From positions 1-64,000 of the forward strand of contig JAHEHM010000008.1 of assembly GCA_024644585.1 (NCBI GenBank): DNA of 64,000 nucleotides, read 5' to 3'. Made by a program: the position numbers and the translations under genes. Below, piece by piece: positions 40,195-63,069 of the stretch. This DNA is from Porticoccaceae bacterium (GTDB lineage: Bacteria; Pseudomonadota; Gammaproteobacteria; Pseudomonadales; Porticoccaceae). A model generated the notes under the pieces. It searched no databases. It was not told the DNA's origin and saw only the letters and a list, made by a program, of their open reading frames with translations. Numbering within the stretch: the stretch's first letter is position 1; each line of letters opens with the position of its first letter.

Positions 40195-40911
40195 CTAGGA
40201 TTTGGTTTTACCATGTCTAATTGACTGAAGACAGTCTTTGTAAACAATGATTTTTTTGCCGCGCAGAGAAATATAACGGGCTTCATCAAATTGCTTCAGA
40301 ACTCTTCCTACCATTTCTCTTGAGCAGCCAATTAGTTTGGCAATTTCCTGTCGTGTGCTGCGAATTATGGTGCAGTCGCCCATAGGTTGAGCGTCGGGTT
40401 GCTGGCATAGATTAATGAGAGCCCCAGCAACACGACCACTGACATCCACAAACGCCAAGTCACGAACCTTAGATGATGTACTTGCTAGTTGTTTTGCAAG
40501 CTGCCTCGCAACAGCAAACAGTAACTCAGGATGTTTTTCGCTGAGACGAAGAAATTTTTTATAGCTTAACTCGCCCAGTTCACATTTGGTTTTGGCACGA
40601 ATACGCGCGCTTCTTGGGTTGGTTTCAAATAAACCCATCTCCCCCACAAAGTCTCCAGGGTTTAAATAGGCAAGGATAATCTCTCTGCCATCGGTGTCCT
40701 CTGTAGCCACTGTTACTGAACCACTCAAAATATAGAAAAGCGACTCACTGAAATCACCCAGATGAATAATCGTTTTTTTGGCTTTATATTTACGAATTCG
40801 GCTATTCTCTAAAAAAATTTCTAAGTGCCTTAAGCAGAAATCCGATTGTATTCTGGTCAAAGTAAACCTCTGATGCCTGTGTTTTTCGAAAATTGTATGA
40901 ATTGCAGCCAA
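40195..40911 (-). CDS. CRP/FNR family transcriptional regulator (Crp/Vfr-like)
   Basis: cNMP-binding domain FVGEMGLF...RSARIRAKT and HTH TRQEIAKLIGCSREMVGRVLK; next to trpC as in Pseudomonas. Confidence 0.92.
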   Translation of the reverse strand: MAAIHTIFEKHRHQRFTLTRIQSDFCLRHLEIFLENSRIRKYKAKKTIIHLGDFSESLFYILSGSVTVATEDTDGREIILAYLNPGDFVGEMGLFETNPRSARIRAKTKCELGELSYKKFLRLSEKHPELLFAVARQLAKQLASTSSKVRDLAFVDVSGRVAGALINLCQQPDAQPMGDCTIIRSTRQEIAKLIGCSREMVGRVLKQFDEARYISLRGKKIIVYKDCLQSIRHGKTKS

Positions 40912-41023: not shown

Positions 41024-41437
41024 ATGAAAGCAGTAGTCAAATGGGTAGATGGCGTTATGTTCTTGGGTGAGTCAGGAAGTGGCCACTCGGTAGTTATGGA
41101 TGGTGCGCCAGAGCAGGGTGGAAGGAATATGGGCGTTCGCCCGATGGAGATGATTCTCTTAGGGTTAGGCGGCTGTGCGTCCTATGACGTGATAGCCATG
41201 CTGAAAAAAGGGCGACAACAGATTGTAGACTGCAGGGCAGAGGTTGAAGCCGAGCGTGTTGATGCTGTGCCAGCGGTATTTAGTAAGATCCATATTAATT
41301 TTGTGGTGACTGGAAGCGACCTAAAAGAAAACCAAGTGAAGCGGGCGGTTGATCTGTCTGCAGAGAAATACTGTTCAGCCTCAATTATGCTCAGTGCGGC
41401 GGGTGTCGCTGTCACGCATAGTTACGAGATTACTTAG
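41024..41437 (+). CDS. OsmC family protein
   Basis: GVRPMEMILLGLGGCASYDVIAML and KYCSASIML motifs. Confidence 0.92.
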   Translation: MKAVVKWVDGVMFLGESGSGHSVVMDGAPEQGGRNMGVRPMEMILLGLGGCASYDVIAMLKKGRQQIVDCRAEVEAERVDAVPAVFSKIHINFVVTGSDLKENQVKRAVDLSAEKYCSASIMLSAAGVAVTHSYEIT

Positions 41438-41453: not shown

Positions 41454-41483
41454 AAAAAAAAGGGAGCCAAAGGGTTGGCTCCC
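41454..41483 (-). terminator. Strong intrinsic terminator, minus strand (unit A)
   Basis: Minus strand: GGGAGCCAA-CCCT-TTGGCTCCC then TTTTTTTATCTTTTTTTT. Confidence 0.85.
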
Positions 41484-41615
41484 GATAAAATTCTTTGGAT
41501 TAAACGCAAAGAGGGGTTTGGGTAGAAAGTTGCTGAGGGACAGCTAACTCTCTATGCCGCGCACTTTAGTGATCTGCTCTTTATTAATCCAATGCATTTA
41601 ATGCATAGAGGCCAT
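41454..41615 (-). ncRNA. Putative small RNA / mini-ORF transcript, unit A (5' end uncertain)
   Basis: Terminator-ended minus-strand unit with CCCCTCTT motif (41509-41516), similar layout to unit B. Confidence 0.45.
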
Positions 41616-41643
41616 TACATTTTGTTATGACCCTGTTGAAGAT

Positions 41644-41692
41644 AAAAAAAAGGACCCTGGGAGGGTCCTAAAAAAATCCTTAAGCAAGGATT
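41644..41692 (-). terminator. Double intrinsic terminator, minus strand (unit B)
   Basis: Minus strand: AATCCTT-GCTT-AAGGATT-TTTTT, then AGGACCC-TCCCA-GGGTCCT-TTTTTTT. Confidence 0.85.
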
Positions 41693-41815
41693 AAGAGGGG
41701 TTCGGTTTCAAGGAAATTCAAAGTCGTACTTTGTAAACCTCACTTGTTAGTTTCTCGCTAAAAGTCAGCGCTAAACTGTAAATCTTTAAAGCTCATCATT
41801 TATTGCTTTATGGTT
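41644..41815 (-). ncRNA. Putative small RNA / mini-ORF transcript, unit B
   Basis: Minus-strand TTAGAA-N18-TATAGT promoter-like sequence, CCCCTCTT motif (41693-41700), double terminator. Confidence 0.5.
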
Positions 41816-41846
41816 GCTACTATAAGGGGAAACATGCCATACTTCT

Positions 41847-41863
41847 AATGCATTGTTTGCATT
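41847..41863. promoter_or_regulatory. Candidate LysR operator
   Basis: Inverted repeat AATGCA-TTGTT-TGCATT between the lysR start and the unit B promoter. Confidence 0.45.
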
Positions 41864-41900: not shown

Positions 41901-42884
41901 GTGAACTTACAAAGACTATCTCGGCTGGATTTAAATTTATTGGTTTCGTTGCAGGCACTGCTAGAAGAAAAAAGTGTTACCAAAGCCGCTGAGCGACTAT
42001 TTATTACCCAGCCCGCTATGAGCCGAGTATTGCAGCGCTTGCGCGATCAATTAGATGATCCTTTGTTTACCCGTACGGGCAACGAGTTGGTGCCTACTCC
42101 CAGAGCCAGAGAGCTCGAAATAAGACTGCCCAGTTTATTAGATACAATTCTAGAGATGGTCAGTGAGGGTGAATTTGACCCCTCTACCTTTGTCGGTGAA
42201 ATTACGGTTGCCGTTCCTGAATTTGTTGCTATTTCCCTTATTTCTGAATTAACCAAGGTATTTACCGAACAGGCACCGGGTTTAATTCTGTCTATATCCA
42301 GTGAAACAGAGTCTGTAGAAGGCGAGTTAGCTGAGGGCGTATTAGACTTTGCCATTGATGTAGAAAGAGGCGTTAGTGAAGATATCTCCTCCAAAAGGTT
42401 GGCAATTTTCACCCCTTCTATTTGGATGAGAGAGGGCCATCCACTTGCCAATAACTCTGAGGTCACCTTAGAAGAAATTTTAGAATACCCTTTTGTGCAG
42501 TATTATCTCCTCATTTATAAGCGAGTCAGTGCTCGCACCGATGCCCGATTTGATAAGGCCCTTAGAGACTTAGGTAGAAAGCGCAAGAAAGCCTTAGTGA
42601 CCAACCAATTAATGACCGCTATGGAAACAGTTTGCGGCTCTGATTGCCTGATGGTTGCAGCCAAATATGGTAATGCTATGGATCGCGAGATGTATAGGAT
42701 AGTGCGCAAGCGCTATCCCTCAGGTCTGCCCCATGTGGGCACTATTCCAATGGTACTACTACAGCATAATCGAACAGCCAGCTCGTCCATTCATAGTTGG
42801 GTAGCCAATCAAATAGTAGACCTTATTAATAGCTGGCAGCGGGATCTTGATGCGGATAGAGAAAGTATTTTGCAATCTGACTAA
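41901..42884 (+). CDS. LysR family transcriptional regulator
   Basis: VNLQRLSRLDLNLLVSLQALLEEKSVTKAAERLFITQPAMSRVLQRLR; likely GTG start at 41901 (ATG 41883 possible). Confidence 0.93.
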   Translation: MNLQRLSRLDLNLLVSLQALLEEKSVTKAAERLFITQPAMSRVLQRLRDQLDDPLFTRTGNELVPTPRARELEIRLPSLLDTILEMVSEGEFDPSTFVGEITVAVPEFVAISLISELTKVFTEQAPGLILSISSETESVEGELAEGVLDFAIDVERGVSEDISSKRLAIFTPSIWMREGHPLANNSEVTLEEILEYPFVQYYLLIYKRVSARTDARFDKALRDLGRKRKKALVTNQLMTAMETVCGSDCLMVAAKYGNAMDREMYRIVRKRYPSGLPHVGTIPMVLLQHNRTASSSIHSWVANQIVDLINSWQRDLDADRESILQSD

Positions 42885-62801: not shown

Positions 62802-62825
62802 AGCATTTATTCTTATAAGAAAAGT

Positions 62826-62995
62826 AGCCCAGAGTGCCGCTGTCAACGTGGCCTTGAACCGAAAAGTTCAAGGGGGCGACTCCCGCAACAAATCAGGCGG
62901 TCCGACAAGCGGCATAGCACAACATCGCTGACTAAGAGTTACCAAAAGGATAGTATCGGCTCAGGGACTTCTTGACTGGCAAACACTCCAGGATT
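62826..62995 (-). ncRNA. ssrS: 6S RNA
   Basis: Minus strand has AAGTCCCTGAGCCGATA and CCTTGAAC...GTTCAAGG as in E. coli 6S; wobble-containing closing stem CCTGGAGTG/CACTCTGGG; TATAAT at 63007-63002; zapA-ssrS-fau synteny. Confidence 0.88.
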
Positions 62996-63069
62996 GGATG
63001 CATTATACCAAAGCTTGGGCCTCAAGCATTATTTTTTGCTTACAATTTAGGACTTACTGGTCAGTGATT

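Follow-up and report, generated by a model that had tools for sequence, protein, structure and literature searches.

The homologous Hfq-type sRNAs AbcR1 and AbcR2 are encoded in tandem in an intergenic region beside the LysR-type gene lsrB, and AbcR1 is activated by LsrB (PMC8844928). LsrB/VtlR directly activates one sRNA and, in Agrobacterium and Brucella, small hypothetical proteins as well (PMC8844928, PMC7486931). In Vibrio cholerae, the single transcript VcdRP encodes a protein of 29 aa and base-pairs through its 3' part (PMC8672173). Four consecutive cytosines of VcdR pair with translation initiation regions in an Hfq-dependent manner (PMC8672173). CcsR1-4 of Rhodobacter are sibling C/U-rich RNAs of the CUYCUCCC type that make up the 3' UTR behind a small ORF (PMC8625941).

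The window analysed here is a 64,000-nucleotide stretch of a Porticoccaceae genome that belongs to the SAR92 clade. Its lysR-osmC gap carries, on the minus strand, two tandem similar units, A and B, each containing a C-rich stretch followed by a small hairpin and a GC-rich terminator with T8; both terminators were found by a terminator scan (Table 1). Comparison with relatives established that the units are conserved, with covarying structure, a sibling relation, a common promoter box, coding constraint on an associated small ORF and linkage to lysR. By analogy, the layout matches that of AbcR1/2-lsrB and the dual-function logic in relatives that of VcdRP, while the 3'-UTR siblings recall CcaF1-CcsR1-4. 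As with AbcR1/2, two homologous tandem units lie in an intergenic region beside a LysR gene. The AbcR1/2 box (Rhizobiales) reads GCAT-N3-TG-N3-T, whereas here GCAT-N3-GT-N3-T is followed by ATGCA-N5-TGCAT; the GCAT is common to both. The systems differ further in that relatives of the window genome encode a small protein on the sRNA itself, and in that the units here had no Rfam match and matched no described sRNA family. A small ORF and a C-rich segment on one transcript, as in VcdRP, were found in most relatives and not in the window. VcdRP consists of one RNA under repression by CRP, whereas here tandem units stand under a putative adjacent LysR regulator and the window copies are ORF-less. 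CcaF1 is a DUF1127 RNA-binding protein, whereas the protein here is hydrophobic, with neither DUF1127 nor any significant Pfam match. Processing of one 3' UTR yields the CcsR RNAs, whereas each unit here has its own predicted promoter and terminator, and the CUYCUCCC of CcsR is replaced by CCCCUCUU. A sequence-only reading of the window had pointed to a CUYCUCCC-type likeness. The literal motif is absent from both units, but relatives do have sibling RNAs in the 3' UTR of a small-ORF gene, and since the same holds for CcsR1-4 the Rhodobacter analogy is better than that reading knew. Given the lack of an Rfam match, the different box, and the absence of DUF1127 and of CUYCUCCC, the locus belongs to none of AbcR1/2, VcdRP and CcaF1-CcsR1-4 by the features tested.

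Multi-copy sibling sRNAs that regulate metabolism or stress genes include NmsRA/NmsRB (NgncR_162/163) of Neisseria and LhrC1-5 of Listeria. The present units resemble them as multi-copy siblings; to our knowledge, neither set is LysR-linked or carries a small ORF. No Rfam family reached its gathering threshold in the units, and at E 10 the best match was suhB. This family (suhB/MmgR, RF00519) was the best sub-threshold match of both units, alike in its U-tailed terminator and C-rich 5' part. Membership was rejected at 26.2 and 22.3 bits against a gathering threshold of 41, and none of ten related loci gave an RF00519 match with an E value of 0.5 or better. A sub-threshold match to ncS54 was discarded, as it was not repeated in relatives. 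The sole Rfam gathering match in the window was a 6S RNA at 62822-62997 on the minus strand (83.9 bits).

Table 1. Predicted and annotated features of the locus (window positions).
Feature	Position	Strand	Remark
crp/vfr-type regulator gene	40195..40911	-	context marker
osmC-family gene	41024..41437	+	convergent to unit A; context marker
Unit A, predicted sRNA of ~103 nt	41454..41556	-	with 5' stem-loop
Unit A intrinsic terminator GGGAGCCAA..TTGGCTCCC + T8	41454..41483	-	terminator scan
Unit A first hairpin TCTTTG..CAAAGA	41492..41512	-	
Unit A CCCCTCTT	41509..41516	-	CCCC unpaired; TCTT inside first stem
Unit A -10 TAAAGT, 18 nt from -35	41563..41568	-	orthologues: TATATT/TACAGT/TAAAGT
Unit A promoter box ATGCATTAAATGCATTGGATTAAT	41583..41606	-	putative LysR site abutting -35 TTGGAT
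Unit B, predicted sRNA of ~165-170 nt	41644..41812	-	3' end = T-run
Unit B intrinsic terminator AGGACCCT-CCC-AGGGTCCT + T8	41644..41669	-	terminator scan
Unit B first hairpin AATCCTT-GCTT-AAGGATT	41675..41692	-	
Unit B C-rich core CCCCTCTT	41693..41700	-	predicted unpaired; ACCCCTCTTAATCCT invariant
Unit B predicted transcription start	near 41812	-	placed from the -10 box
Unit B -10 TATAGT, 18 nt from -35	41819..41824	-	sequence reading; conserved in clade
Unit B promoter box ATGCAAACAATGCATTAGAAGTAT	41839..41862	-	putative LysR site overlapping -35 TTAGAA
Unit B extra half-site GCAT	41873-41870	-	
lysR	41901..42884	+	divergent from unit B; likely GTG start at 41901

Secondary structure was predicted for both RNAs, and in each the CCCC was ~95-99% unpaired. 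The UCUUU that follows it in unit A sits in a stem (unpaired probability 0-0.09) and UCUU is mostly unpaired in unit B only, so that the exposed core common to both units is AAACCCC. The earlier proposal of an exposed pyrimidine-rich core complementary to Shine-Dalgarno (SD) sequences was thus borne out for CCCC in both units and not for the UCUUU of unit A; the SD pairing itself is one that we infer. Folding was compared with that of shuffled sequences and gave z = -6.1 for the unit A RNA and z = -2.5 for the unit B RNA. Type B units read ACCCCTCTTAATCCT-loop-AGGATT and type A units ACCCC(T/C)..CTTTGTGATTCATCCAAAG; a separate terminator lies downstream of each. A covariance model trained on type B only matched type A (41.7 bits, E 2e-7 in the window), and one trained on type A only matched type B (48.4 bits, E 2e-10). 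Because each model detects the other type, the two are siblings, and the tandem minus-strand units with similar 3' halves described by the sequence-only reading were both recovered. Two-sided changes were found in 13 of 14 pairs, with 171 such cells against 46 in shuffled and at most 15 in slid controls, in an alignment that had been fitted to the model; a MAFFT-only alignment of type A gave 10 two-sided cells against 2.2. The first stem of type B, a small hairpin, is too invariant for covariation within that type, and support for it therefore comes from the between-type comparison. A second hairpin terminator formerly assigned to unit B (AATCCTTGCTTAAGGATTTTTTT) was not called by the terminator scan; this AT-rich hairpin corresponds to the conserved first stem in relatives.

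Loss of the motif and terminators from close relatives was looked for and did not happen: blastn found the element in 33 of the 34 other genomes of the same genus, and in 0 of 21 other genera of the order. The family search returned at least one match in every same-genus genome among the matches listed, and the cassette was present in practically all SAR92-clade genomes searched. When 84,980 species genomes were scanned with a pattern of the type B core plus hairpin, 46 contigs matched, titled SAR92, HTCC2207, Porticoccaceae, MOLA455 or uncultured Cellvibrionales/Pseudomonadales. Gene order was constant (divergent lysR at 65-98% identity, RNA units, osmC where kept, crp); over relatives throughout the family, lysR keeps this position at 45-98% identity. 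Its start is likely the GTG, preceded by the SD GGAGAGG, rather than the mechanical TTG at 41853, since homology to relatives begins at that GTG. The NCBIfam models nearest to the window LysR were BsrA, CitR, YidZ and LelA, all below cut-off. In one SAR92 subclade (L007, L009, L010, L012-L014, L030), osmC was not found in the locus stretch examined, while lysR and the RNA units remain, and crp in most. As osmC was not found there beside retained lysR and RNA units, it is probably not the functional partner. No match was obtained among the viral contigs searched, and carriage by phage was discarded.

A conserved gene for a hydrophobic protein of 34-40 aa has the first unit as its 3' UTR in most relatives. 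Of 53 type B units, 30 have an ORF with a good SD (MTLVYLLIGFTGLAGAAIAKDDFVKLEAP...) ahead of the core, which lies 18-92 nt downstream of it; the number is 31 if the variant ORF of L060, which the search pattern missed, is counted. The other 23 type B units (L060 included) and all 30 type A units examined were scored as ORF-less and have the box, C-rich core and terminator. Among 28 distinct ORF sequences, pN/pS was 0.24 and the variable columns fell 13/5/27 by codon position, from which the ORF was taken to be a real protein gene. A profile of the small protein, run against 245 genomes of the order, gave confident matches within this family only; two weak matches elsewhere lay inside long frames. 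The ORF is missing from the window genome and four close relatives, so that unit B of the window lacks what the orthologous unit carries in most relatives. A replacement mini-ORF in window unit B (MMSFKDLQFSADF) was rejected, having no SD and no conservation in its clade. Within this ORF-less clade ACCCCTCTTAATCCT was 100% invariant and the hairpin and terminator 93-96% invariant, against 30-50% for the 90-nt leader before the core. Since ACCCCTCTTAATCCT stayed invariant while the leader decayed after ORF loss, selection acts on the RNA itself; core invariance amid leader decay is the best evidence for a function of the RNA itself.

The motif ATGCA-N5-TGCATTNGNNTTAT was present upstream of 82/82 units tested, with the -10 at fixed spacing. 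Only 0.2-0.3% of shuffled sequences reach the threshold for the ATGCA-N5-TGCAT box. The palindrome conforms to the T-N11-A pattern of LysR sites and lies directly against the -35; when up to one mismatch is allowed, the box is almost confined to this locus and hardly occurs elsewhere in the genome. Because all units carry it, because it is a LysR-type palindrome and because it is nearly confined to this locus, we strongly infer control by the adjacent LysR; the position of the boxes suggests that LysR binds them. A box of the same sort also precedes units of genus g128 that lie on contigs other than that of lysR. Such extra units (box, small ORF, type B RNA) were seen in L158, L160 and L162, on contigs of ~36 kb in the latter two, and the ORF of L162 looks degenerate. 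Their location away from the lysR locus indicates that the module was copied within the g128 genome.

Taken together, the locus is probably a cassette in which LysR controls small RNAs that stand in tandem and act in trans. In response to a presumed signal, the divergent LysR would bind the ATGCA-N5-TGCAT box before each unit and activate a sigma-70 promoter, repression being less likely. Each transcript would end at a Rho-independent terminator with a long U tail. Such a tail is the usual Hfq-binding end, and Hfq, on which these RNAs may also depend, was encoded in 10/10 genomes tested. The ACCCCU(C) core, exposed immediately 5' of the small hairpin, would pair with G-rich ribosome-binding regions of target mRNAs and block their translation. 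Ancestrally, each RNA may also have been the mRNA of a hydrophobic protein of 28-46 aa and thus a dual-function RNA; the streamlined window lineage would then have lost the coding part and kept two bare sRNAs. Features of Hfq-dependent trans-acting sRNAs found here are the intrinsic terminator, the long U tail, the exposed conserved seed and a genomic Hfq.

Targets were searched for, and no conserved one was found: AAGAGGGGT before ATG gave 0-5 sites per genome, many of them inside genes. Neither of the best candidates was genus-wide: an OprO/P-like porin was seen in 2 genomes and a HyuB-like protein in 3 close strains. Autoregulation through the ribosome-binding site of lysR or osmC was rejected as a conserved trait, as these sites, partly complementary in the window, are not kept in relatives. 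Before ATG, the pattern AAGAGGGG(T) outnumbered its reversed control. This surplus is no evidence, because such a pattern resembles an SD sequence in its own right; its candidates were not conserved and it was dropped as a target signal.

The most serious competitor of the trans-acting reading, though an unlikely one, is that the cassette exists for the tiny membrane protein, with a 3' element that serves only termination, stability or processing and window copies that are relics of small-protein genes. Clear purifying selection on the ORF, its good SD sequences, its tandem repetition in genera g24 and g125 and the lack of the C-rich element in 1/4 units of G216 all fit this explanation. It accounts poorly for the box, core and terminator kept without the ORF in the 23 type B units (one being the L060 variant) and the 30 type A units, for the invariant core beside a decaying leader in the window clade, and for ACCCCTCTTAATCCT, which a terminator does not need. 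The retention of the core without an ORF on the RNA, in the window and several other lineages, also makes it rather improbable that the C-rich stretch regulates its own transcript in place of other mRNAs, by sequestering the ribosome-binding site of the small ORF or as an entry site for Hfq or RNase. Such cis action would suit the close spacing of ORF and core on the same RNA in most relatives, but the small-ORF SD, AAGGAG, appears only weakly complementary to CCCCUCUU.

Less probable again is a target mimic, sponge or protein-binding RNA whose core titrates another regulator instead of pairing with SD sites. That the target search established no mRNA target agrees with this possibility; against it, no known protein-binding signature was recognised, and the RNAs that offer close mechanistic precedents use their C4 or anti-SD cores on mRNA initiation regions. 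It is very improbable that the locus consists of ordinary convergent terminators and intergenic debris in which the motif arose by chance. Terminators are common and many weak model matches elsewhere consist of terminators only, but genus-wide retention, fixed-spacing promoter boxes in every unit and compensatory changes mean that the relatives largely refute this explanation.

Beyond the genus but within the family the locus is more elaborate, and in distant genera it forms an array of up to four units of box, tiny gene, C-rich RNA and terminator. Genus g25 has lysR, a small-ORF unit and a type A RNA, then osmC. Genus g125 has an RNA unit and one or two small-ORF units with CCCCTGAA-type cores, and genus g119 a compact ORF-less RNA. 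A complete genome of genus g24 has four tandem units, all with box and small ORF and three of the four with CTACCCCCTCC-type cores. Four and three box/small-ORF units were seen between lysR and osmC in L250:1650-3300 and L251:1800-3600, respectively, with the small-protein consensus ..SGLLGSAIA.DDLK... The sequence-only reading had missed this array through the family, together with the small-protein 3' UTR in most relatives and the link between box and LysR.

In other families of the order, the region facing LysR homologues of at most 41% identity contains short boxes, tiny ORFs (for example MTSVVMTAMLIVSLGLLGAIAVNDLSK) or C-runs accompanied by terminators. We tentatively entertain the wider view, a little less probable than its converse, that across Pseudomonadales one LysR subfamily is firmly wired to arrays of dual-function RNAs that diverge from it, each RNA encoding a tiny hydrophobic protein and carrying a C-rich anti-SD RNA as part of the 3' UTR. 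The two functions would have been uncoupled repeatedly, streamlined marine lineages keeping the RNA and discarding the protein. Six LysR homologues of 32-41% identity in these families (L257, L259, L260, L264, L265, L267) were read by eye and diverge from putative short transcripts whose boxes are of the CATTT type; all of these loci except L257 have tiny hydrophobic ORFs, and C-runs were noted in L260 (CCTACCCCCCCCCTCTTGG) and L257 (CCTCTCCCTTTTC). The combination of LysR, tandem C-rich RNA and small protein in alphaproteobacteria (LsrB-AbcR) and in this gammaproteobacterial family, with undetectable RNA similarity, suggests convergent wiring.

SAR92-clade bacteria abound in coastal seawater, and a literature search found no small-RNA work on them. 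What the clade gains is an sRNA family in concrete form, the regulator that probably controls it and a small-protein family not described before; cultured strains such as HTCC2207, H231 and H921 exist for study. Sister lineages with and without the protein provide a natural experiment on dual-function RNAs in which the two functions can be separated by comparison.

Model matches outside the family were mostly terminators without a C-rich core and were set aside. Those in genus g23 (L171-L173) were double hairpins without the core, and those in genus g94 (L115, L118, L128) a different hairpin with a AACCCCTT loop. In these three g94 loci the hairpin is conserved, with the loop TAACCCCTTA, and is followed by a strong terminator; it may represent an unrelated C-loop RNA.
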